A stretch of 64,000 nucleotides of DNA from positions 2,852,001 to 2,916,000 of the forward strand of contig NZ_CP078089.1 in NCBI RefSeq assembly GCF_022701195.1. The letters run 5' to 3'. Positions 2,136 to 64,000 of the stretch are shown here, piece after piece. Made by a program: the position numbers and the translations under genes. Positions within the stretch are counted from its first letter, which is position 1; the number at the start of each line of letters is the position of its first letter. Under the pieces are notes generated by a model. It had not been told where the DNA came from, did no database searches, and saw only the letters and a list, made by a program, of their open reading frames with translations. This stretch comes from Allobaculum mucilyticum (GTDB lineage Bacteria > Bacillota_I > Bacilli_A > Erysipelotrichales > Erysipelotrichaceae).

Positions 2136-2570
2136 GTGCTGTTTCAGTGACTGTTCCATCAAACGCATGGAGCGGGCGGTCTTTCAGTTTCCACAGCATC
2201 CCGTGCCCTGAGCCTGACGCATGCAGCTTTTGGTGCCTGTTAGAACACAGGGAAAGAGTAGTGAATTCTGAAAGCTTCTGCGTTTTTTGTGAGGCCAGAG
2301 TTTAAATCGTATGGTATAAAAAATTACCTGCTGATTCACAGCCGTTTTTTCGATGAAAGAAGTGAATAAGCTGGTATCCTGAATTATGGAAGATTCTGCT
2401 TAGCGAAGAATAGTCAGCGTAAGCTCAAATTACTTTGAATTCTGTTTTTGCAGATCTTCTGATTCAATCAGATGATTTCAACATCCAGTTTTCTTTGCAT
2501 CATTCGACATGAACTGCTGTTTCATGTCATGTTAAGACTGGATGCCGTATACAGGAAGAAGGAGAAAATT
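2136..2570. other. Intergenic region upstream of the beta-galactosidase gene
   Basis: This is 435 bases without a convincing gene. It contains AT-rich stretches such as GTATAAAAAATT near 2313 that could be a -10 region, and a dyad at 2506-2528. An in-frame extension of the beta-galactosidase frame up to 2472 lacks a ribosome site and is not taken as coding. Confidence 0.5.
2506..2528. promoter_or_regulatory. Dyad upstream of the beta-galactosidase gene, possible operator
   Basis: Arms GACATGAA and TTCATGTC are perfect inverted repeats separated by 7 bases and end 42 bases before the start codon. This could be a regulator site or a leader hairpin; no regulator gene is adjacent. Confidence 0.35.
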
Positions 2571-5500
2571 ATGGAAACAGTAAAGCCGGATCTGGCCTGG
2601 CTTGATGAGCCGGCCATTACGCAGGTCGGCCGTCTTGAACCGACTGCATCCCTGCATCGAAAAGTTCCCTGTGCACATGCCGTTCAGTCTCTGAACGGAA
2701 CATGGAAAGCCCTAGTGAGCAGTGAACCGGATGTGGCACATGATTTTGAAGATGAGGTTTTTATTCAGCCTGAAGATAACATTTCTCACTACGATGACAT
2801 CCAGGTGCCTGGTCACCTTCAGCTGCAGGGCTATGGACAGATTCAGTACACCAATACCGCCTATCCATGGGATGGAAAAGAAATTGTTCCGTATGGAAAG
2901 ACGCCGAAAGAAAACCTCCATGCCCGCTATGCCCTCGACTTTGATGTCGACGAGGCGCTGGCAAGAGATCATGTCGAACTCGTTTTTCATGGCGTAGAAA
3001 GCGCATTTTATGTCTGGCTGAACGGTACCTTTATCGGTTACAGCACAGATTCCTTTACACCCTCTGCATTTGATGTCACCGGTCTGCTCAAAGACAAAGA
3101 CAACCGTCTGTCTGTTCTGGTTTATCAGTTCTCGAGCGGCTCCTGGCTGGAAGATCAGGATTTCTTCCGCTTCTCCGGAATCTTCCGGGATGTTGAACTG
3201 CAGGGAAGAAAAAAAGCATGGATCGAAGATCTGCGGATCACAACCGAGCTTGCCGATGATTTTTCAAGCGGAGCTGTGATTGCAGACATCCGGGATCGCA
3301 ATGCAAACCGGTTTACGATCTCGCTGTTTGATCCGGATGAAAAACTGATGTTTGCTCAGACGATTACATCCCGTTCTTTACGGCTGTTCTTTGATGATGT
3401 CCGTCTATGGTCTGCCGAGCGCCCGGATCTGTACACGCTTCGCATCGATGTTCTCGATGAAGACGGTGCAGTTCAGGAAACCGTAGAAGAAAAGGTTGGA
3501 ATGCGCCGTATTGAAATCGTGGATGGCGTCGCGCTGCTCAATGGCAGGCGTCTGATGCTGCATGGCGTCAACCGTCACGAATTCAGCTCGAAAACAGGCC
3601 GTGTTCTTACAGAGGAAGAGACTAGAAACGATCTGCTTCTGATGAAAGCTAACAACATCAATGCCGTCCGTACCTGCCATTATCCCAACCGGGAAGTGTT
3701 CTATGATCTGGCCGATGAGCTGGGTCTGTATGTTATGGATGAAGCCAACCTGGAAACGCACGGAACATGGCAGTCCGGCTTTACCGAAACACCGGATGAT
3801 CCGCTTCCAGGCAATAAGCCGGAATGGAAAAAAGCTGTTCTGGAGCGTGCTCAGGCCATGTTTGAGCGCGACAAGAACCATCCGTCCATTCTGTTCTGGT
3901 CGCTTGGCAACGAAAGCTGGTATGGCGATAACCTGCTTGAAGAAGCTGCATGGCTGCGTATCGCGGATCCGGATCGTCTCATTCATTACGAAAGCTGCTT
4001 CCGCAGCGATGACTATGCCGGATGCACCGATGTCTATTCGCGCATGTACGCTACACCGGAAGAAATCGAGAAGATTCTCAAGAGCGGTGTGAAGAAACCA
4101 GTCATCCTCTGTGAATACATGCATGGCATGGGTAACTCGCTTGGCGGCATGTATCGTTATGCCCGTCTGGAAGAATACCGTCACTATCAGGGCGGCTTCC
4201 TGTGGGATTTTGCGGATCAGGCCATTGAAACCGAGAAAAACGGCGTAAAAATGCTGGGCTATGGCGGCGACTTTGGAGACTTCCCGAACAATGGAAACTT
4301 CTCCGGCAACGGCATTCTGTTTGCGGACCATACACCAAGTGCCAAGATGCAGGAAGTCCGTGCTCTGTTTGCACCGATGCGGATCATTGTCGATGAAGAC
4401 GGTGCGATGATTCTGAATACCAGTCTGTTTACCGGAACGGATCAGTATCGTTTTGCAGCAATCCAGAAAATGGAAGACCGCGTCATTTACGAAGAAGAAT
4501 TTTATGTCGATATCCATCCTGGCCGCTATGGACATGTGGATCTCGACTGGATTGATACAAAAGAAGAAAGCGTCTGCACTGTCAGTGCGCTTCTTGCAGA
4601 AGATCAGCCATGGGCAGAGGCCGGTCATGAAATTGCGTTTGGTCAGAACGTTCTGTCCCGCTCATCGAAACCGCACCCGATTGAAGAGGGAATGCAGTTT
4701 GTTCAGGGCAAGGAATACTTTGGAGCTTCCTTCAATGGAATCCGCTTCCTGTTTAACCAGAAAGGACTGGCTTCCATTTCCAATCAGGGCGTAGAGTGGC
4801 TTGAAGCCATGCCGCGTCCAGTCTTCTCGCATGCGTATACCGATAACGAACGCGGCTTTGAATTCGACCGGATCTCCTCTGTCTGGTATGGATCATCTCT
4901 GTTCACCCGGACTGTCGACCGTCAGATTGCACTGGATGAAAGCGGTCAGTTTGCCCGTGTGACCTATCACATGGCTCTTCCGTATCCGGCTTCTAGTTCA
5001 ACACAGATCACTCTGTCGTATTTCATCAGCGCACCGGGATTCCTTGGCATCCGTATGGAAATGCCAGGCAACCGCTATATGCCGGATCTGCCGGTTTTTG
5101 GCATGGAATTCAAGCTGCCAAAATCTGCAGACCAGTTTGAATACTATGGCTGCGGACCGCTGGAAAACTACAGAGACCGCAAGTGCGGCGCTAAGCTGGA
5201 TGTCTTCCAGGACAATGCCGCAGATAATGTTCAGCCGTATCTGAAACCGCAGGAAACAGGCAACCGGGCTGATGTTCGCTGGATTGAATTCCGTCATCAG
5301 GGACAGATTCTCCGTTTTGAACAGTCCGACCGTCCTTTTGAAGTTTCCGTGCTTCCATATTCCTTTGCCCAGCTGCAGGATGCCGATCATCAGGAAGAAC
5401 TTCCTGCTTCGACGGGTACGTATGTTCGCATTGCTTCTGACCATATGGGCGTTGGCGGTATTGACTCCTGGGGCTATGAAATCCACTCGTCCGACCGTCT

Positions 5501-54447: not shown

Positions 54448-54750
54448 ATGGCGGGCTACAAAGTAAGAAAACTTGATGACAAGTATGAGGTTCTCTATCC
54501 CAGCGGAAAGGTTCGCTGTTGTGTGGATGATGGCGAGCTTGCCTATGAGATCGCAACAGAGCTCATGAGAGAGCGATCGCAGGAGCCCACACCCGTGAGG
54601 TGCGTGGAGTCCGGAGAGATCTTCAAGGACCACTACGAAGCAGCTAAAGAGTGTGGCGGTAATCCTAACGGGATCAAGCGTTGCTGCCTTGGAATCATCT
54701 CCCGTTCGTGTGGTCTTCGTTGGGAGTTTGCCGATGCCCTTGAAGCCTAA
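54448..54750 (+). CDS. Hypothetical phage protein
   Basis: The 100-residue protein is of unknown function. Its N-terminal half is a small beta-rich unit (YKVRKLDDKYEVLYPSGKVRCCVDDG). The second half (VRCVESGEIFKDHYEAAKECGGNPNGIKRCCLG) resembles the NUMOD1-like helical DNA-binding repeats of HNH homing nucleases. The next gene is an HNH nuclease that overlaps it by 17 bases, so it may help that nuclease bind DNA (inference). TTGGAGGTGAAG lies before the ATG. Confidence 0.65.
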   Translation: MAGYKVRKLDDKYEVLYPSGKVRCCVDDGELAYEIATELMRERSQEPTPVRCVESGEIFKDHYEAAKECGGNPNGIKRCCLGIISRSCGLRWEFADALEA

Positions 54751-55087
54751 ACGCCCATGCGGCTGGCCTGGCTGTCCAAACCTCACCGACAAAGCCTATT
54801 GCCCTGAACACACCAAAGCAGCCAACAGACGCTACGAAAAGTACAGACGTGATCCACAGACGAGCTCACGTTATGGAAAAGCCTGGCAGGTTGCTCGTAA
54901 GAAATACAAAGCGAAGCATCCGCTCTGTGAGATGTGTCTGGCTGATGGCAAAGCCGTGCCCATGGAGCAGGTTCATCACATTGTTCCGCTCTCACAGGGT
55001 GGAACCCATGACGAAAACAACCTCATGAGCCTGTGCAAAAGCTGCCATTCCAGGATTCATGCAAAAGAAAAAGGACATTGGAGGTAA
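54734..55087 (+). CDS. HNH endonuclease next to the terminase genes
   Basis: The 117-residue nuclease begins with a zinc-binding CxxxxC...C..H unit (CGWPGCPNLTDKAYCPEH) and ends with the HNH motif: HPLCEMC, VHHIVPLSQGGTHDENNLMSLCKSCHSRIH. HNH proteins of this type next to terS are known to work with terminase in cos-type DNA packaging. The start at 54734 has GGGAG upstream. A cos site, if present, would be nearby at 55088-55261. Confidence 0.9.
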   Translation: MPLKPKRPCGWPGCPNLTDKAYCPEHTKAANRRYEKYRRDPQTSSRYGKAWQVARKKYKAKHPLCEMCLADGKAVPMEQVHHIVPLSQGGTHDENNLMSLCKSCHSRIHAKEKGHWR

Positions 55088-55261: not shown

Positions 55262-55429
55262 ATGAAGCAATACAAATTTGAAATCATGAGGTCAGGCAAT
55301 CTTGTCTCATCACTTACTGAAATGGAGAGTTTTGTTAACAAATATGCAAAAAAGGGATGGGATTTGAAGTCTATTCAGCATTTCCCAGATATGTCGACGT
55401 ACCTCTTCATATTCACCAAAACAGTTTAA
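55262..55429 (+). CDS. Small DUF4177-like protein
   Basis: The 55-residue protein starts at an ATG with AAGGAGGGTGAG just upstream. The pattern YKFEIM...ESFVNKYAKKGWDLKSIQHFPDMSTYLFIFTK resembles the DUF4177 family of small beta-alpha proteins with a central GW. It is not listed among long frames because of its size. It lies between HNH and terS; function unknown. Confidence 0.7.
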   Translation: MKQYKFEIMRSGNLVSSLTEMESFVNKYAKKGWDLKSIQHFPDMSTYLFIFTKTV

Positions 55430-55452
55430 GGAGCTTTGAAAGGAGGTCCGAA

Positions 55453-55983
55453 ATGGCAAAAGACGGTACTAGACGAGGCGGAGCAAGACCTGGAGCAGGT
55501 CGAAAAAAGAAGTCCGCAATTGAAAAAATGGATGCTGGAGAGGCCATTTCTTTGATCTTACCAGAACCGGTAGACCTGATTGGGACGGATTGTCCTCCGG
55601 TCAAGGAATACCTGAAAGCCAATCAGAAATGCGGCATTGACCTGTCCGCAGCCGATGTGTTTGAGGATACATGGAAGTGGCTGGCTGCCAGAGGGTGCGA
55701 AAAGCTGGTCTCTCAAAATCTGATCGAGCAGTACGCAATGTCCGTTGCTCGATATATTCAGTGCGAGACCGCTATTTCTGACTACGGATTTCTGGCTAAA
55801 CACCCTACAAGTGGAAATCCAATGCAGTCTCCCTATGTGGCGATGAGCCAGAACTACATGAAGCAGGCCAACCAGATCTGGTATCAGATCTTCCAGGTGG
55901 TAAAGGAAAACTGCACCGAGTCCTGGAGCGGAAACACACCGCAGGATAACGTGATGGAGCTACTGCTCAGGAAGAAAGGTTAA
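55453..55983 (+). CDS. terS: Phage terminase small subunit, P27 family
   Basis: The 176-residue protein starts MAKDGTRRGGARPGAGRKKK, the basic Gly/Arg-rich opening common to P27-type small terminases, then a helical DNA-recognition part and an oligomerisation part (YAMSVARYIQCETAISDYGFLAKHPTSGNPMQSPYVAMSQNYMKQANQIW). It recognises viral DNA and hands it to the large subunit. The start at 55453 follows AGGAGG; an upstream frame from 55357 overlaps the small gene before it and is rejected. Confidence 0.92.
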   Translation: MAKDGTRRGGARPGAGRKKKSAIEKMDAGEAISLILPEPVDLIGTDCPPVKEYLKANQKCGIDLSAADVFEDTWKWLAARGCEKLVSQNLIEQYAMSVARYIQCETAISDYGFLAKHPTSGNPMQSPYVAMSQNYMKQANQIWYQIFQVVKENCTESWSGNTPQDNVMELLLRKKG

Positions 55984-55995
55984 GGAGGTTTTTGA

Positions 55996-56655
55996 GTGAT
56001 CATTGAATTCAATTGTGAAACCTGTGGCAAAGCTGTTCGTCGTTCTTATTCACAAAATAGTATCCCTAAACATTTCTTCTGCAGCAGAGCTTGTCAGAAC
56101 GTATGGCAAAAAACGAGACAGGATATCGTTGAGAAAAACAAAGATCCTGAATTCCGCAAGAAGGTTTCAGCTGGTTTGAAGAGAAGAAAACAGATTCTCA
56201 AAGAAGATTATCACTCCCCTGAAACAAAGAAGAAAATCGGTTTAGCTACGCGTGAACACTGGGAGAGTTATACGGATGACAAGAAGGAACGATTAATTAA
56301 AGTTTTGCGAAATAATGGAGCTTCTAAAAGAACCTACGGAACTTACGACACAGAGTGGCATAAATTGAGCGAAGAATTACGTGATGGTGCGGTTTGCTCG
56401 AGGTGTGGCTCTACAGATTATTTACACGTTCATCACATTATTCCTGCCAAAAAAGGAGGAAGCAGAGATCGATCGAATCTTGTAGTTCTTTGTTCGCGTT
56501 GCCATCGAATAGTCGAAAGTGCTCAGTATGAACTCTTTAATCTTTTGGAAGATTGGGAATTGATTCGCAGAATCGTGAAAGGAAGGTTAAGCAATACGCC
56601 ATATGTTAAACATAAAAACTCTGCAGCTGACGGATCTCAACCCTGCAATTTATAA
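55996..56655 (+). CDS. HNH endonuclease with N-terminal zinc finger, homing-type
   Basis: The 219-residue protein starts with GTG after AAGGAGG. The N-terminal zinc finger (CETCGKAVRRSYSQNS...FCSRAC) is followed by a helical NUMOD3-like region (NKDPEFRKKVSAGLKRRK, YHSPETKKKIGLATREHW). The HNH core is near residues 130-180 (CSRCGSTDYLHVHHIIPAKKGGSRDRSNLVVLCSRCHRIV). This architecture is typical of free-standing homing endonucleases. It sits between terS and the methyltransferase, overlapping the latter by 53 bases, and is a likely intruder in the packaging operon. Its codon use is more AT-rich than its neighbours. Confidence 0.85.
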   Translation: MIIEFNCETCGKAVRRSYSQNSIPKHFFCSRACQNVWQKTRQDIVEKNKDPEFRKKVSAGLKRRKQILKEDYHSPETKKKIGLATREHWESYTDDKKERLIKVLRNNGASKRTYGTYDTEWHKLSEELRDGAVCSRCGSTDYLHVHHIIPAKKGGSRDRSNLVVLCSRCHRIVESAQYELFNLLEDWELIRRIVKGRLSNTPYVKHKNSAADGSQPCNL

Positions 56656-57859
56656 CCCTCGTATAACTCTCAAACCAGGAGATCCAGAGTTTGAGAAGTT
56701 AAAGAATTCCATCCTAAACTTTGGCTATGTGGAATTGATCGTAGTGAACGCCAGAACTGGAAATACAGTTATTTCGGGACATCAGCGGTTGAATGTTCTT
56801 AAAGAAATCGGAATTAAAGAAGCAGAATGTGTACTCGTTGACCTTGATGTAGAAGCAGAAAAGGCGCTCAACATTGCCATGAACAAAGTGAACGGTGAAT
56901 GGGATAACGACAAGCTGGCGCTGCTGATCACAGACTTGCAGGCTGCAGACTTTGACGTTTCCCTAACTGGCTTTGATCCTGATGAAATTGAAGACCTTCT
57001 GGGAGGAAACGATGAAGCTAAAGAAGATGATTTTGATGTGCAGACTGAGTTGGATAAGCCTGCTTTTTCTATGCCTGGTGATCTTTGGCAGATCGGAAAA
57101 CACAGAGTAGCCTGTGGGGATTCGACCGACCCGGCAGTCTTCGAGAAGCTGCTGGGCGAAAACAAAGTGAACCTGGTTTGCACCGACGCTCCGTACTTCG
57201 TCGATCTCAACAGCGCTTCTGGAAAAATCAAAAACGACAACCTCAACGACAAAGAAGCCTACGAGTTTTTGATGAAGGTTTTCACCAACCTCAAGAACGC
57301 CATGGCTATGGACGCTTCCATCTATGAGTTCTACGCCACCATGAAATCTCGTATCTTCTATGACGCCTTTGAAGACGCTGGTTTCAAGGTTGGTGCTGGT
57401 CTTGTCTGGAAGAAGCCTCGCGCCCCCTTCATGCGAACCGACTGGAAGTTCAACATGGAGCCCATCATCTTTGGCTGGCGAAAAGATGGAAAGCACAAGT
57501 GGTATGGAGACCAGAAGCAGACAGCTGTGTTTGAATTCGACGGAATCAAGGACTCCAAGAAAGACGGACATGGCCACCCATCTTCCAAGCCAATCCCGCT
57601 AATTGCATACCTCATTGAGCAGTCCACTGCCACCAACGGCCTGGTGCTGGATTGCTTCCTGGGTTCTGCATCCACCCTGATGGCTTGCGAACAGAGCAAC
57701 CGGATCTGTTACGGCATCGAGCTGGAACAGAAGTTTGTCGATGTTGCCGTCAAGCGCTACATCGAGTACATGGGTTCTGACCAGGATGTGTTCGTCCTGC
57801 GTGACGGTCAGAAACTTCCGTATTCCAGCGTTGCTACCACCTCGGAAGGCACTGAATAA
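56603..57859 (+). CDS. ParB-like domain/DNA adenine or cytosine-N4 methyltransferase
   Basis: The 418-residue protein has an N-terminal ParB/sulfiredoxin-like domain (residues 1-100: DLNPAIYNPRI, ISGHQRLNVLKEIG) fused to an amino-methyltransferase domain. Motif IV comes first (VCTDAPYF near 195), then the target region, and motif I late (LDCFLGSASTLMACEQ near 365): a beta-class order. Motif IV is normally D-P-P-Y; here it is D-A-P-Y. Such ParB-MTase proteins are common near phage terminases and may protect viral DNA. Its start lies inside the end of the HNH gene, with GGAAGG somewhat far upstream. Confidence 0.88.
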   Translation: MLNIKTLQLTDLNPAIYNPRITLKPGDPEFEKLKNSILNFGYVELIVVNARTGNTVISGHQRLNVLKEIGIKEAECVLVDLDVEAEKALNIAMNKVNGEWDNDKLALLITDLQAADFDVSLTGFDPDEIEDLLGGNDEAKEDDFDVQTELDKPAFSMPGDLWQIGKHRVACGDSTDPAVFEKLLGENKVNLVCTDAPYFVDLNSASGKIKNDNLNDKEAYEFLMKVFTNLKNAMAMDASIYEFYATMKSRIFYDAFEDAGFKVGAGLVWKKPRAPFMRTDWKFNMEPIIFGWRKDGKHKWYGDQKQTAVFEFDGIKDSKKDGHGHPSSKPIPLIAYLIEQSTATNGLVLDCFLGSASTLMACEQSNRICYGIELEQKFVDVAVKRYIEYMGSDQDVFVLRDGQKLPYSSVATTSEGTE

Positions 57860-57893
57860 AGTGCTTTATCTATCGGTCTTTTTCTGTATTATA

Positions 57894-57930
57894 GCTTGCT
57901 ATGTATCTCCTTTAGAGTGATATATACAGT
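57894..57930 (+). promoter_or_regulatory. Promoter of the amidoligase operon, copy 1 of a 37-bp repeat
   Basis: TTGCTA (57896-57901) and GATATA (57919-57924), 17 bases apart, form a likely promoter. The whole 37-base segment recurs identically at 59616-59652. Confidence 0.7.
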
Positions 57931-57955
57931 GCCCGGAGGGCAAGGGAGAACAAGC

Positions 57956-58882
57956 ATGAAGAACACAGCGAAACAGATCGAAAACATGAAGAAACAGACG
58001 ATTGGGGTCGAGATCGAAATGGCAGGCATTACTCGCAAGGCAGCCATCAAGGTGATCGCGAAGTACTTCAACACCGAAGACACAGTCGAACACCAGGGTG
58101 GCGGATACGACCGCTACACCTGCAAAGACGACCAGGGCAGAACCTGGCAGATCATGAAGGACGTCAGCATCCAGGACACCTTCAGCAAGCAGACCGAGAT
58201 GGTCACACCGATTCTTCACTACGAAGACATCGAAACCCTGCAGGATCTGGTCAGAGCCCTTCGCAAACGCGGAGCCATTTCCAACCCGGAACACGGATGC
58301 GGAGTTCACATCCACATCGGAGCCGACGGCCACAACGCAAAAACCCTGCGAAACCTGGTCAACATCATGGCAAGCCACGAAGCCCTGATCAAAGAAGCCC
58401 TGAACCTCGACGCCGCACGCGTTAGACGCTATTGCCGGATGGTTGACCAAGGCTTCCTTGAAAAGCTCAACGACAAAAAGCCAGCCACCATGAGCCAGCT
58501 TGCAGACCTTTGGTACGCAGGAACCTGGGGTTCCAGAAACGCCCACTACAACGAATCGAGATACCACATGCTTAACCTCCACGCCACCTTCACCAAGGGA
58601 ACCATCGAGTTCAGACTTTTCCAATTTGACAACCCAACCGAAGATCGCAAGGGCGGCCTTCACGCAGGACAGCTCAAGAGCTACATCCAGTTTTGCCTGG
58701 CACTGAGTCAAATGGCCAAAGACGCCAAGAGCGCTTCCCCAAAGCCTCAGCAAAACGAAAACCCTAAGTACGCGATGAGAACCTGGCTTCTTCGCCTGGG
58801 GTTTATTGGAGACGAATTCAAGACAGCTCGAGAAACCTTGACAAAGCGGCTGAGCGGAAACGCAGCCTTCCGGATGGCATAG
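57956..58882 (+). CDS. Amidoligase family enzyme (glutamine synthetase-like fold)
   Basis: The 308-residue protein is of the amidoligase_2 family, predicted ATP-dependent COOH-NH2 ligases. Family blocks visible: IGVEIEMAGITR near residue 15 (metal/ATP-site Glu residues), EMVTPILHYEDIE near 80, GCGVHIHIGADGH near 115, and GTIEFRLFQFDNP near 220. It is followed 9 bases later by a gamma-glutamylcyclotransferase-like gene and then a zinc-ribbon gene. The pair of a ligase making gamma-glutamyl-type bonds and an enzyme that removes them has been predicted from comparative genomics to modify peptides or proteins; the substrate is unknown. GGGAGAAC precedes the ATG at 57956; upstream in-frame starts lie inside the promoter repeat. 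Confidence 0.85.
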   Translation: MKNTAKQIENMKKQTIGVEIEMAGITRKAAIKVIAKYFNTEDTVEHQGGGYDRYTCKDDQGRTWQIMKDVSIQDTFSKQTEMVTPILHYEDIETLQDLVRALRKRGAISNPEHGCGVHIHIGADGHNAKTLRNLVNIMASHEALIKEALNLDAARVRRYCRMVDQGFLEKLNDKKPATMSQLADLWYAGTWGSRNAHYNESRYHMLNLHATFTKGTIEFRLFQFDNPTEDRKGGLHAGQLKSYIQFCLALSQMAKDAKSASPKPQQNENPKYAMRTWLLRLGFIGDEFKTARETLTKRLSGNAAFRMA

Positions 58883-58891
58883 GAGGACAAG

Positions 58892-59344
58892 ATGAAAAAC
58901 TACGCAGCCTACGGCAGCAACCTCAACATCGGCCAGATGAGCCACAGATGCCCAGGAGCCAAGCTCCTGGGTACTGCCTGGCTTGAAGACTGGCAGCTTC
59001 TTTTCAAAGGAAGCAAGACCGGTTCCTACCTGACGATCGAACCAAAGAAAGGCAGCCGGGTCCCACTTGGGATCTGGAAGGTGAGCAAAGCCGATGAGCA
59101 AATGCTTGATATCTACGAAGGCTGCCCGGACTTTTACCAGAAGTACGAACAGACGTTGAACGTGTGTCTGGAAGGTGGAACCACCAAACGTATGAAGGTC
59201 TTCTTCTACGCAATGCCCACCAGTGCAAAACTGGGTCTTCCCTCCAGGCGCTACCTTCTGGTCTGTCTTGAAGGCTACCGGGACTTCGGATTTGACTCGG
59301 CCTTTTTAGAAGAAGCCTTGATGGCTTCAAGGAGAACGAAATGA
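58892..59344 (+). CDS. Gamma-glutamylcyclotransferase (AIG2-like) family protein
   Basis: The 150-residue protein opens with YAAYGSNLNIGQM, the substrate-binding loop of the GGCT/AIG2 family. It has the fold's later segment (VPLGIWKVSKADEQMLDIYEGCPDFYQKYE) with the family's acidic residue, E in DIYEG, near 74-76. Such enzymes release 5-oxoproline from gamma-glutamyl amines. AGGAGG lies 4-5 bases before its ATG. Its stop overlaps the next start by 4 bases. Paired with the amidoligase, it probably edits or reverses the ligase product (inference). Confidence 0.88.
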   Translation: MKNYAAYGSNLNIGQMSHRCPGAKLLGTAWLEDWQLLFKGSKTGSYLTIEPKKGSRVPLGIWKVSKADEQMLDIYEGCPDFYQKYEQTLNVCLEGGTTKRMKVFFYAMPTSAKLGLPSRRYLLVCLEGYRDFGFDSAFLEEALMASRRTK

Positions 59345-60033: not shown

Positions 60034-62655
60034 ATGGCAATGCGAAAGCTGAAAAAATACAAACCTACAAAGTTCAAGGCTCGCACATCTTATTACGATA
60101 AGGAAGCAGCCGACTATGCGGTTAACTTTATCGAGTGCCTGTGCCACACCAAAGGAACCTGGGCGGGTAAGCCCTTTGAGCTGATCGATTGGCAGGAACA
60201 GATCGTGAGAGACCTGTTTGGAATCAAGAAAAAGAACGGTTATCGACAATTCAACTCGGCTTACATAGAGATTGGAAAAAAACAAGGGAAGCAAGTTGCA
60301 TTAGATACGTTGATTCCTACTCCATCCGGTTTTACTACAATGGGCGAGATCAAGGTAGGCGATACTGTGTTCGATGAAACTGGCACTCCTTGTCATGTGG
60401 TCGCCAAGAGTCAAATTGATTTTGACGAACAGGCTTATCGTATTGTATTCAAAGATGGAGAGGTTATCGAAGCTGGTGAGAATCATCAGTGGATTGGAGA
60501 GAAGCATGCCAAACCCGTGATGATGACAACCGGTGAACTGTACACGTATTTTCAAACACCTTCCTATCGATTCCGCATAGCAGTCAATGGTGCACTTGAA
60601 ACTCCGGAAGCAGAACTGCCAATCGATCCATACTTGATGGGTTATTGGCTCGGAAACGGAAGTGCAACCAAACCAGAAATTACAGTGAAGACTTCCGACG
60701 TACCGGAAGTCCTTTTTAATATCCAGCAGAACACTGTAGTCAACAATGCCTGGTTGAATGTTGGTGATTCGTTAATTTTCCGGATCCGCGAGTTGAAACC
60801 TATCCTGCTCAAATCATTTCACGACAAAGTGATCCCTCCTGAATATCTCCGTGCTTCCAAAGAGCAGCGACTTCGTCTTCTACAGGGGCTGATGGACTCT
60901 GATGGAACAATAGGAAACGTAAAAGGCCAGGGTGTATATATCTCGACCGAGAAACAATTATCACAAAGCGTAAGTGAACTCCTGTGGACGCTGGGGGTCA
61001 AAAATGCGATTACTTCCACTCCGTCCACCCAACCGGCTAATAGGGATGTTCCAGGCCAGGAATGTGGCAGAGTGGAAACTGGTGAAACCTGCTATATGGT
61101 CAAATTCACTTGCTTTGACGATGTAAAAGTCGCAGGTCTGTCCAGAAAGCTAAAGAATCGAATCCCTAGAAATCCAACGACTAGATCCCATTTTCGATAT
61201 ATCGACTCGATTGAGAAAATCGAGAACCGAGGAATGCAATGCATCCAGGTGGATAGCCCGTCCCATCAATACTTGATTGGCAAAAGCTGTCTTCCAACGC
61301 ACAACTCAGAGCTTGCAGCGGCCATTGCATTGCTCCTCACCTGCGGAGATGGAGAGCAGCGAGCTGAAGTGTACGGCTGCGCTTCGGATCGTCAGCAGGC
61401 ATCCATTGTGTTTGATGTAGCTGCTGACATGGTCCGGATGTGTCCGGCTTTGAACAAGCGCTGCAAAATCCTCGCTTCTCAGAAACGGCTGGTGTATCTG
61501 CCCACGAATAGCTTCTATCAGGTTCTTTCCGCTGAAGCCTACTCGAAGCACGGCTTCAACATTCACGGAGTAATCTTTGATGAGCTACATTCCCAACCAA
61601 ACCGAAAACTACACGATGTTATGACCAAAGGCTCTGGCGATGCTAGGATGCAGCCGCTCTTCTTTCAGATCACCACTGCTGGAACAGATACAAACTCGAT
61701 CTGTTACGAAGTTCATCAAAAAGCCAAGGACATTCTGGAAGGCAGAAAAGTCGATCCAACCTTCTACCCGGTCATCTATGGAGCTGATCAGGATGATGAT
61801 TGGACAGACCCCAAGATTTGGAAAAAAGTGAATCCTTCCTTGGGGATTACCGTTCCGATTGAAAAAGTTCAGGATGCCTGTGAATCCGCAAAGCAAAATC
61901 CCGCTGAAGAGAACGCTTTTCGGCAGTTAAGGCTTTGTCAATGGGTCAAACAATCTGTCCGCTGGATGCCGATGGACAAATGGGACCTATGCGCTTTCCC
62001 GGTTATCCCTGAAGAGCTCGAAGGTCGTGTTTGTTATGGCGGACTTGACCTTTCTTCCACCACCGATATCACAGCATTTGTTCTGGTCTTCCCTCCTATC
62101 GAGGAGGATGAGCCTTACCAGATTCTGCCGTACTTCTGGATTCCGGAAGACAGCCTGGATCTGCGGGTGAAGCGAGATCACGTTCCCTATGATATATGGA
62201 AGAAGCAAGGCTTCCTGGAAACCACCGAAGGCAATGTCATTCACTACGGATACATCGAGAAGTTCATCGAGCAGCTTGGTGAGAAGTTCAACATCAAAGA
62301 AATTGCTTTCGACCGTTGGGGTGCTGTCCAGATGGTTCAGAACCTCGAAGGCATGGGCTTCACAGTCGTCCCGTTTGGTCAGGGCTTTAAGGATATGTCT
62401 CCGCCAACCAAGGAGCTGATGAAGCTGGTGCTGGAAAAGAAGATCGCCCATAATGGTCATCCGGTTCTTCGATGGATGATGGATAACATTTTTATTCGTA
62501 CAGATCCTGCTGGCAACATCAAAGCAGATAAGGAGAAGTCCACAGAGAAGATCGACGGTGTGATTGCAACCATTATGGGTCTTGACCGTGCTATTCGCTG
62601 TGGGAACATCAGCACAGAGAGTGTGTATGACAGTCGTGGACTGCTAGTGTTCTAA
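60034..62655 (+). CDS. terL: Phage terminase large subunit interrupted by an intein
   Basis: The 873-residue precursor consists of terminase exteins of 535 residues, the normal TerL size, and a 338-residue intein at residues 87-424. TerL is the packaging motor and nuclease. The ATPase Walker A reads GKKQGK, then the intein, then S: the splice point is exactly between the invariant Lys and Ser. Walker B is VIFDELHSQ near residue 510. The RuvC-like nuclease domain begins near 665 (CYGGLDLSSTTDITAFVL) with its first Asp. Without splicing the ATP site is destroyed, so packaging depends on intein removal. The start is ATG after GGGGG. It stands alone between two terminators; the gene expected next (portal) is missing. 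Confidence 0.93.
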   Translation: MAMRKLKKYKPTKFKARTSYYDKEAADYAVNFIECLCHTKGTWAGKPFELIDWQEQIVRDLFGIKKKNGYRQFNSAYIEIGKKQGKQVALDTLIPTPSGFTTMGEIKVGDTVFDETGTPCHVVAKSQIDFDEQAYRIVFKDGEVIEAGENHQWIGEKHAKPVMMTTGELYTYFQTPSYRFRIAVNGALETPEAELPIDPYLMGYWLGNGSATKPEITVKTSDVPEVLFNIQQNTVVNNAWLNVGDSLIFRIRELKPILLKSFHDKVIPPEYLRASKEQRLRLLQGLMDSDGTIGNVKGQGVYISTEKQLSQSVSELLWTLGVKNAITSTPSTQPANRDVPGQECGRVETGETCYMVKFTCFDDVKVAGLSRKLKNRIPRNPTTRSHFRYIDSIEKIENRGMQCIQVDSPSHQYLIGKSCLPTHNSELAAAIALLLTCGDGEQRAEVYGCASDRQQASIVFDVAADMVRMCPALNKRCKILASQKRLVYLPTNSFYQVLSAEAYSKHGFNIHGVIFDELHSQPNRKLHDVMTKGSGDARMQPLFFQITTAGTDTNSICYEVHQKAKDILEGRKVDPTFYPVIYGADQDDDWTDPKIWKKVNPSLGITVPIEKVQDACESAKQNPAEENAFRQLRLCQWVKQSVRWMPMDKWDLCAFPVIPEELEGRVCYGGLDLSSTTDITAFVLVFPPIEEDEPYQILPYFWIPEDSLDLRVKRDHVPYDIWKKQGFLETTEGNVIHYGYIEKFIEQLGEKFNIKEIAFDRWGAVQMVQNLEGMGFTVVPFGQGFKDMSPPTKELMKLVLEKKIAHNGHPVLRWMMDNIFIRTDPAGNIKADKEKSTEKIDGVIATIMGLDRAIRCGNISTESVYDSRGLLVF
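60292..61305 (+). other. Class 3-like intein with LAGLIDADG domain inside terL
   Basis: The 338-residue in-frame segment has the intein block A pattern but with Gln at position 1 (QVALDTLIPTPSG...GEIKVGDTVFD), block B as GENHQW with Trp at intein position 67, block F as QCIQVDSPSHQYLIG with Cys at 317, and block G as PTHN/S with Thr at 336, His 337, Asn 338. A Trp-Cys-Thr set with a non-nucleophilic first residue is the mark of class 3 inteins, in which the block F Cys starts splicing. The first downstream extein residue is Ser. A LAGLIDADG homing domain lies between (PYLMGYWLGNGS and LLQGLMDSDGT); the first motif has Asn in place of the usual Asp. Confidence 0.88.
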
Positions 62656-62770: not shown

Positions 62771-64000
62771 ATGGATCAAAACGTATTAAATGCCCAGAAA
62801 TACCTCAATGCAATGTATGGAGGAAATAGTAACTGGGTTACGCTCAGTGAAGACGGAAATACTGGTACTTCCTTTATCCAGGGAATTGTCAGAGCTTTTC
62901 AGATTGAAAACGGACTTGCAACTCCTAACGGAAATCTCGGCCCTGCTACTTTAGCAAAGATGAAGTCACTGGCTCCTATTACGCTAATGAACCCGGATGA
63001 CCCGGTGAACAATAACGTTTGTCTTATCCAGTGTGCTCTGTTTGGAAAGGGATATAACGCCGGTGGTATTACAGGTATCTACTATAACTTTGGAATGAAT
63101 GCAGTGAAAACATTCCAGAGTGATGCAGGTCTCACAGCTAATGGAGTTATTGACTGGAAAGTCTGGCAGGGACTTCTGTCATTGAACTGGTTCTTTTTGG
63201 CAAGCGGAGGGAGTGAAACACTCCGGAATATCCAGCTGATGTTTAATCAGAACTGGTCAGACTACCTTGGAGTAGGACCATGTGATGGAATTATGAGCCG
63301 TCAGACTGCTCTTTCACCTCTCGCTGCTCTGCAGGCTCAGGAAGGACTTCTTACAGATACCATCACAGATTTCAACTCTCTGAACTTCGGACCAGCTACA
63401 TCCGCTGCTTTCCCTGGGATTCTGAAGATCAATCAGAGTTCTGGCAACTACAGAAAATACAACATGATTGCTCAGGCAGCGTTGTATTTTAATGGGTACA
63501 ACCCAGGAAACTTTACCGGGACTTTTGATACCGAGATGCAGACAGCAGTTTCCAATTTTCAGAATTTCTACGCTCTGACTGGAATTGGGCTGGTAACACC
63601 TGGAGAAATTAATCTGGCCACTATGAAATCACTTCTCACAAGCAAAGGTGATGAGAATCGTAAATCATATGGATGTGATACAGCTACAGTCTTGTCTCCT
63701 TCTCAAGCAACAGCTCTGAAAAATCTTGGTTATACCCACGTCGGCAGATATTTGACCGGAACAGTCGGTTTAAATTATGTGCCGAAGTTTCTGACTTTCG
63801 ATGAGATTCAGAGTATTGAATCAGCCGGGTTGAAAGTCATTCCAATCTACCAGGATGGTGGTTATTATTTCGATTATTTCATTGGTAACTTACAAGGAGT
63901 CAGCGATGCGAAGACCGCAATTTATGCAGCTAAAACAATCGGACTTCCAGCAGGATCGACGATTTATTTTGCTGTAGATTATGATTTTACTGAACCAGAA
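62771..64000 (+). CDS. Peptidoglycan-binding repeats plus DUF1906 lysin-like protein (3' end outside window)
   Basis: The frame is open for 410 codons to the window edge. The first 300 residues hold several peptidoglycan-binding-like helical repeats (NGNLGPATLAKMKSL near 57-71, ITGIYYNFGMNAVKTFQSDAGLTANGVIDWKVWQGLL near 100-136, NFTGTFDTEMQTAVSNFQNFYALTG near 250-275). From about residue 315 begins a DUF1906 (Rv2525c-like, GH25-like TIM barrel) domain: HVGRYLTGT, AGLKVIPIYQDGGYYFDYF, IYFAVDYDFTEPE. There is no signal peptide, so a phage-type endolysin or holin-assisted cell-wall enzyme is likely. AAAGGAGG is 7-8 bases before the ATG. It follows terL directly, where structural genes would be expected. 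Confidence 0.88.
   Translation, partial: MDQNVLNAQKYLNAMYGGNSNWVTLSEDGNTGTSFIQGIVRAFQIENGLATPNGNLGPATLAKMKSLAPITLMNPDDPVNNNVCLIQCALFGKGYNAGGITGIYYNFGMNAVKTFQSDAGLTANGVIDWKVWQGLLSLNWFFLASGGSETLRNIQLMFNQNWSDYLGVGPCDGIMSRQTALSPLAALQAQEGLLTDTITDFNSLNFGPATSAAFPGILKINQSSGNYRKYNMIAQAALYFNGYNPGNFTGTFDTEMQTAVSNFQNFYALTGIGLVTPGEINLATMKSLLTSKGDENRKSYGCDTATVLSPSQATALKNLGYTHVGRYLTGTVGLNYVPKFLTFDEIQSIESAGLKVIPIYQDGGYYFDYFIGNLQGVSDAKTAIYAAKTIGLPAGSTIYFAVDYDFTEPE

Follow-up and report, generated by a model that had tools for sequence, protein, structure and literature searches.

The DNA stretch analysed here (the window) comprises 64,000 nucleotides of the single 3.14-Mb contig that makes up the genome of Allobaculum mucilyticum, and carries the prophage gene terL for the large terminase subunit (TerL). 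The terL frame very probably encodes a class 3 intein that harbours a LAGLIDADG homing endonuclease domain. This mobile element sits in the Walker A loop of TerL, and its splicing is predicted to restore the packaging motor. The frame is divided into two extein parts and the intein between them, as follows.

60034..62655, forward strand: terL, large terminase subunit precursor (Pfam TerL_nuclease, E-value 2.1e-49, and TerL_ATPase, 2.8e-18; phrog_9, 6.7e-184)
60034..60291, forward strand: N-extein, residues 1-86, ending with the Walker A Lys (GKKQGK), placed by gapless empty-site alignments and the register with HK97 TerL
60292..61305, forward strand: very probable class 3 intein of 338 residues with Gln as residue 1, based on empty-site borders, homology to class 3 inteins and residue conservation
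61306..62652, forward strand: C-extein of 449 residues, whose first residue is both the +1 Ser and the Walker A Ser, placed by empty-site alignments and the HK97 TerL register

The frame is open for 873 residues. The insert occupies TerL residues 87-424, starts with QVALDT and ends with PTHN, with GKKQGK before and SELAAA after it; its removal leaves 535 residues, in agreement with the length that the first-pass annotation, made from the sequence letters and their reading frames, had given for spliced TerL. The TerL_ATPase profile matches the frame in two stretches, the best of which begins at profile position 41, compared to one stretch (positions 1-177) in an intein-free relative. Once joined, the flanks align without a gap to the intein-free phage TerLs L054, L055 and L056 (531 residues, 83-84% identity) and to L092, an intein-free TerL from the host's family (535 residues, 90%); among the other intein-free TerLs of this family, L094, L095 and L103 also align gaplessly and L093 has one gap. 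An intein-free relative matches HK97 TerL (PDB 6Z6D) with an E-value of 2.2e-70, placing KKQGK/S opposite RKNGK/T. Because of these gapless empty-site alignments and the HK97 register, we place the insert between the Walker A Lys and the residue that follows it, so that both the borders and the Walker A insertion point proposed in the first-pass annotation stand. The site, between the P-loop Lys and Ser/Thr of a Terminase_1-type TerL, is that of TerL1-a, which lies between the invariant P-loop Lys and Thr (PMC5050341; cited, like the other papers below, from excerpts). An in-frame gene fusion without splicing was rejected, as intein-free relatives and the mini forms described below have exactly one common insertion point.

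A phmmer search with the single sequence returned class 3 mycobacterial DnaB inteins as the best PDB matches (6BS8, E-value 1.8e-18; 6RIX, 2.3e-18; 6RIY, 1.1e-17), and a profile search matched 6RIX at 6.4e-31. The HQW motif, the block F Cys and the TH/THN end are in register between the insert and 6BS8/6RIX. With intein residues numbered from Gln1 and approximate domain borders, the splicing domain comprises the following features.

60292..60576, forward strand: N-terminal part of the HINT domain, blocks A and B, residues 1-95; residues 2-73 align to 6BS8 2-73
60484..60486, forward strand: His65, block B, 72/72, opposite the H of HQW in 6BS8 and 6RIX
60490..60492, forward strand: Trp67, block B, the W of the Trp-Cys-Thr (WCT) set, 72/72, opposite the W of HQW in 6BS8 and 6RIX
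61162..61305, forward strand: C-terminal part of the HINT domain, blocks F and G, residues 291-338; residues 312-338 align to 6BS8 113-139
61240..61242, forward strand: Cys317, block F, predicted initiating nucleophile, 72/72, opposite the block F Cys of 6BS8 and 6RIX
61297..61305, forward strand: Thr336-His337-Asn338, block G; Thr336 72/72, all three invariant in the 37 inteins of set A1

Conservation was counted over 72 inteins, namely the window's and 71 distinct others at the TerL position, with duplicates removed beforehand. His65, Trp67, Cys317 and Thr336 are unchanged in all 72, a count affected by a recruitment bias weighed below, whereas residue 1 is Gln in 62, Glu in five, Leu in four and Ala in one, and in none Cys, Ser or Thr. 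The collecting script required the intein to end in His-Asn or Gln-Asn and to be followed by Ser/Thr-Glu, and it set no condition at positions 1, 65, 67, 317 or 336; in the 72, Asn338 and the +1 residue thus hold by construction, and His337 nearly so. Set A1 was gathered without a demand on the end residues, and in it His65, Trp67, Cys317, Thr336, His337 and Asn338 are invariant in 37 of 37 inteins. The +1 residue is Ser in 47, Thr in three and a gap in one of 51 alignment rows, which include the window's copy (L001) and two pieces of L043, with L004, L051 and L052 dropped. The WCT set is also kept in 17 of 17 diverse inteins from TerL and other proteins: ten phage inteins found by tblastn and chosen for variety among the matches listed (60 of 539 phage records), six from other scans and that of the window.

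The triad of the M. chimaera class 3 intein, Cys124, His65 and Thr143, together with its Trp67 (PMC7664689), has its counterparts here in Cys317, His65, Thr336 and Trp67. Altogether, the intein shows the features of class 3: a non-nucleophilic residue 1, the WCT set, a block B His, a block G His-Asn and a +1 Ser/Thr. Gln1, Trp67, Cys317, the Thr-His-Asn end and the +1 Ser, as listed in the first-pass annotation, are all read in the translated frame, and its class 3 type and block B and F assignments are upheld by the alignment to solved class 3 inteins, the conservation of WCT in 72/72 and the mini-inteins, which keep WCT. Its concern that another Cys or Ser might occupy residue 1 is answered by the empty sites, which fix the border at Gln, and by the alignment of Trp67 and Cys317 to blocks B and F. 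Class 1 was rejected, as there is no Cys or Ser at position 1 and the border is set by empty sites. A scan of NCBIfam gave only matches far under the curated cut-offs, all to intein-bearing proteins.

From these residues we infer, on good grounds, that the intein would splice and that packaging would wait on splicing. Cys317, aided by His65 and Thr336, would attack the bond between Lys86 and Gln87 (precursor numbering) and take over the N-extein, which the +1 Ser would then take from it. Cyclisation of Asn338 would free the intein, and the TerL parts would be joined as GKKQGKS to complete the ATP-binding loop; before splicing, the precursor motor should be unable to use ATP. A class 2-type or other route, in which the +1 Ser directly attacks the upstream junction and Cys317 has only a structural role, would share with class 2 the non-nucleophilic residue 1 (PMC5222942), but we give it almost no credence: the WCT residues and His65 line up with those of solved class 3 inteins and show no variation in 72/72, direct attack belongs to class 2 only, and class 3 splicing is blocked when Cys F:4 is mutated (PMC5222942). 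Class 2 was accordingly set aside, the WCT set being complete. Splicing by the class 3 route is in keeping with published phage TerL inteins: of their seven types, five were assayed, and each of these spliced (PMC5050341).

Eleven of the 72 sequences are mini-inteins of 134-169 residues that have no endonuclease and keep Trp67, Cys317, Thr336 and His65, and at least five changes between full and mini states are needed on the splicing-domain tree. Since the mini-inteins keep WCT and His65 without an endonuclease, selection in them preserves splicing, not homing. Three copies of the intein are present in the host genome, and all are open. Among them, the ratio of nonsynonymous to synonymous substitution rates (dN/dS) is 0.06-0.13 for the endonuclease, 0-0.12 for the splicing parts and 0.02-0.04 for the C-extein. 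In a wider comparison of 33 inteins (A1 with the last 4 of its 37 rows dropped), the medians are 0.15 for the N-terminal splicing part, 0.28 for the endonuclease and 0.10 for the C-terminal splicing part, calculated from few usable pairs (14, 25 and 36 of 528, respectively).

The intein is distributed patchily. In a sample recruited by the exteins (the best 80 of 600 or more), 77 sites were readable, 74 of them empty (one with Arg for Ser) and three occupied by an intein (two of them mini), and three were unreadable. In a sample of the host's family, 11 of 195 genomes have a TerL relative at an E-value of 1e-60 or better, and among the 16 loci fetched from these 11 genomes the intein is found only in the window's genome and in G136 of the same genus; in a 392-genome sample of the phylum, it was detected at 1e-20 or better in the window's own genome only. 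When mapped on a tree of 49 distinct exteins (39 full, 2 mini and 8 empty), presence and absence require at least six changes; the trees exclude duplicate exteins and any row in which the intein start could not be read. Intein and extein tree distances agree poorly (r 0.19, 39 full inteins), compared to 0.65 between the extein halves, 0.45 between two C-extein pieces and 0.37 between two intein parts, with a weak common signal, as the observed value was equalled or exceeded in 27 of 2000 permutations. The terL genes thus recombine, and by the tree distances the intein moved beyond that. The intein would be a mobile element whose spread among related TerL genes was partly independent of these genes, presumably driven by its endonuclease.

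The host copies are mosaic. Between L001 and L002, the 276 bases before terL and the first 300 of terL are identical, followed by up to 16 differences per 60 bases. A patch of ~360 bases (~2701-3060, L001 coordinates), covering the 3' end of the intein and the start of the C-extein, has 0-2 differences among the three host copies (L001-L003) and 4 from Allobaculum sp. Allo2 (L078), whereas these four are otherwise ~7-13% diverged over terL; distant relatives are no more alike in this patch than elsewhere. The pattern fits recombination around the site, with the endonuclease as a putative driver. Of the relatives found in other genomes, L078 is the closest, at 91% in the intein. Two further close relatives in both TerL and intein, L063 and L080, lie in contigs titled as Alistipes and Prevotella metagenome-assembled genomes, far from Bacillota, a placement likely due to misbinning.

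Three observations weigh against a working and mobile intein. Some of the peptide patterns that recruited the 72 sequences include Trp67 or Cys317, which biases their counts upward; a match to one pattern was enough, and other patterns contain neither residue. Supported splits in conflict between intein and extein trees (10/20 extein, 10/22 intein) are hardly more numerous than those between the TerL halves (6/18 and 8/18), and split counts alone would not show that the intein moved beyond terL recombination. Finally, two genes lie between the window's terL and the portal gene.

62771-64000 of the window and beyond (L190:172-2295 and 2442-3752): a wall-hydrolase-like gene of 707 residues with peptidoglycan-binding and Rv2525c-like glycoside-hydrolase domains, and a DDE transposase gene

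Because of these two inserted genes, the window prophage may be defective and its copy perhaps not part of a working phage. The same interruption of the late operon would suit a relic that no longer splices, in a dead terL of a defective prophage, as would the TerL of the related Allobaculum copy L078, which is spread over several frames (either a pseudogene or a sequencing error), and the inactive class 3 intein inside a pseudogene mentioned in PMC7664689. Such a relic is nevertheless very improbable, given that the three copies in one genome are open and under strong purifying selection on both intein and exteins, that in the other two copies terL has a portal gene within ~1 kb, 93-96% alike to that of the window, and that all catalytic splicing residues are retained. 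Judged by its residues and their conservation, the window's insert is in all likelihood a functional class 3 intein.

The first-pass annotation had further thought redox or stress control at Cys317 conceivable. In a regulated switch, oxidation or another signal at Cys317 would stop splicing and thereby hold up packaging. DnaBi1, which likewise is of class 3 and sits in a P-loop, is inhibited by peroxide via a Cys48-Cys118 disulfide (PMC6195587), and the N-cleavage reaction of the class 3 intein from M. chimaera is also inhibited by H2O2 (PMC7664689). The window's intein has Ala at the partner position 48, as do 65 of the 72, with Cys in only two; among 16 other class 3 inteins, Cys48 occurs in seven. 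A DnaBi1-like switch, with Cys48 as partner of the block F Cys, was tested at this position and rejected, and redox or stress control specific to this intein is not supported. A different cysteine could be an alternative disulfide partner.

60391..60393, forward strand: Cys34, the likeliest candidate partner, kept in 71/72

The persistence of endonuclease-free copies could also suit a switch. By contrast, 74 of the 77 readable TerL sites in the extein-recruited sample are without an intein, which indicates that TerL needs no such switch, and the five published TerL inteins that were tested all spliced readily (PMC5050341). A regulated switch is therefore improbable, and only general oxidant sensitivity of the catalytic Cys can be expected by analogy with the M. 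chimaera intein (PMC7664689).

The endonuclease domain, which like the mobility and the earlier description of site and class in phages is absent from the first-pass annotation, occupies the middle of the intein.

60607..61161, forward strand: LAGLIDADG homing endonuclease domain, ~residues 106-290 (approximate borders); LAGLIDADG_3, E-value 7.6e-07, with a PI-SceI profile match; absent from the 11 mini-inteins
60655..60657, forward strand: Asn122 in LAGLIDADG motif 1 (MGYWLGNG), opposite PI-SceI Asp218 (GDG)
60901..60903, forward strand: Asp204 in LAGLIDADG motif 2 (QGLMDSDG), opposite PI-SceI Asp326

The PI-SceI profile match spans both LAGLIDADG motifs (profile positions 115-257, E-value 2.2e-10), and local alignments of the two motifs to PI-SceI are weak on their own (3.6 and 5.1 bits). 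The motif 1 Asp, PI-SceI Asp218, is one that we take to be catalytic. Active LAGLIDADG enzymes have an acidic residue in both motifs, and in the window's intein the one in motif 1 is replaced by Asn122. Among 61 endonuclease-bearing inteins, this residue is Asn in 56, Asp in four and Lys in one, but the first scans used the pattern MGYWLGNG, which biases the Asn count. Two scans without motif 1 in the pattern added 12 distinct endonuclease-bearing inteins, with Asn in eight, Asp in three and Lys in one; in the ten fetched inteins of the named phage collection, it is Asp in 10/10. The dN/dS values of the host's copies give no sign of relaxed selection on the endonuclease domain. Given Asn in 56/61, this purifying selection and the seemingly still mobile intein, the endonuclease could be a LAGLIDADG nickase with a single active site that still homes, an idea we put forward as a rather unlikely one. 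If true, the intein would home by a natural LAGLIDADG nickase; the frequent Asp-to-Asn difference offers a clear test case for LAGLIDADG homing from one active site.

Upstream of terL, the prophage carries a small terminase gene flanked by two endonuclease genes.

55357-55983: small terminase gene (Terminase_4)
54653-55087 and 55996-56655: two HNH endonuclease genes flanking the small terminase gene

Between the small terminase gene and terL (56603-59344) lie genes for an N6/N4 DNA methylase, an Amidoligase_2 protein (57896-58882) and a gamma-glutamyl cyclotransferase (58892-59344), and an annotated gamma-glutamyl cyclotransferase gene is likewise found upstream of terL in Ruminococcus phage NatCom_28775. 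The portal, head protease, head-closure and tape-measure genes are downstream, beyond the window. A fourth terL fragment in the host genome (G000:C1:2961057-2961251; L004, L193) covers residues 1-65 at 97% identity and sits among recombinase- and transposase-like genes, named by eye.

The intein type and the insertion site are already known from other phages. Among mycobacteriophage proteins, TerL hosts inteins most often, and WCT-bearing class 3 inteins are known from phages (Kelley et al. 2016, PMC5050341). A full-text search of one open-access library found no paper on this Bacillota intein group, which is no proof of absence, and turned up nothing of use on the endonuclease motif. Judged by record titles, the 72 distinct sequences at this one site widen the range of class 3 inteins in the TerL P-loop to a large group of phages and prophages from Bacillota and some Actinomycetota. 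The 11 natural mini-inteins could become small class 3 splicing tools, for which closely related intein-free TerLs are usable as controls. Inteins with W, C and T after GK are also present in terminase-annotated genes of Vibrio phage 489E54-1, Clavibacter CN1A, Stenotrophomonas SOVA965 and Rhodobacter RcKickapoo.

Among the known systems, Mycobacterium phage Eureka (L086) has a KNGK/T site, keeps W, C and T and carries a non-nucleophilic Ala at position 1; by its site, it would belong to the TerL1-a group of PMC5050341. Compared to Eureka, the window's intein is 31.5% identical, resides in a Bacillota prophage, is followed by a +1 Ser and has Asn instead of Asp in motif 1. The mycobacterial DnaB class 3 inteins (6BS8, M. 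smegmatis DnaBi1; 6RIX, M. chimaera DnaB1) are like it in His65, Trp67, the block F Cys and the block G Thr. DnaBi1 also has a P-loop site and a +1 Ser (PMC6195587); however, its host is a helicase, it is without an endonuclease domain, and it carries Cys48 where the window's intein has Ala. PI-SceI is matched over both LAGLIDADG motifs, the first of which reads GDG in PI-SceI and GNG here, and HK97 TerL (6Z6D) is an intein-free homologue of the exteins.

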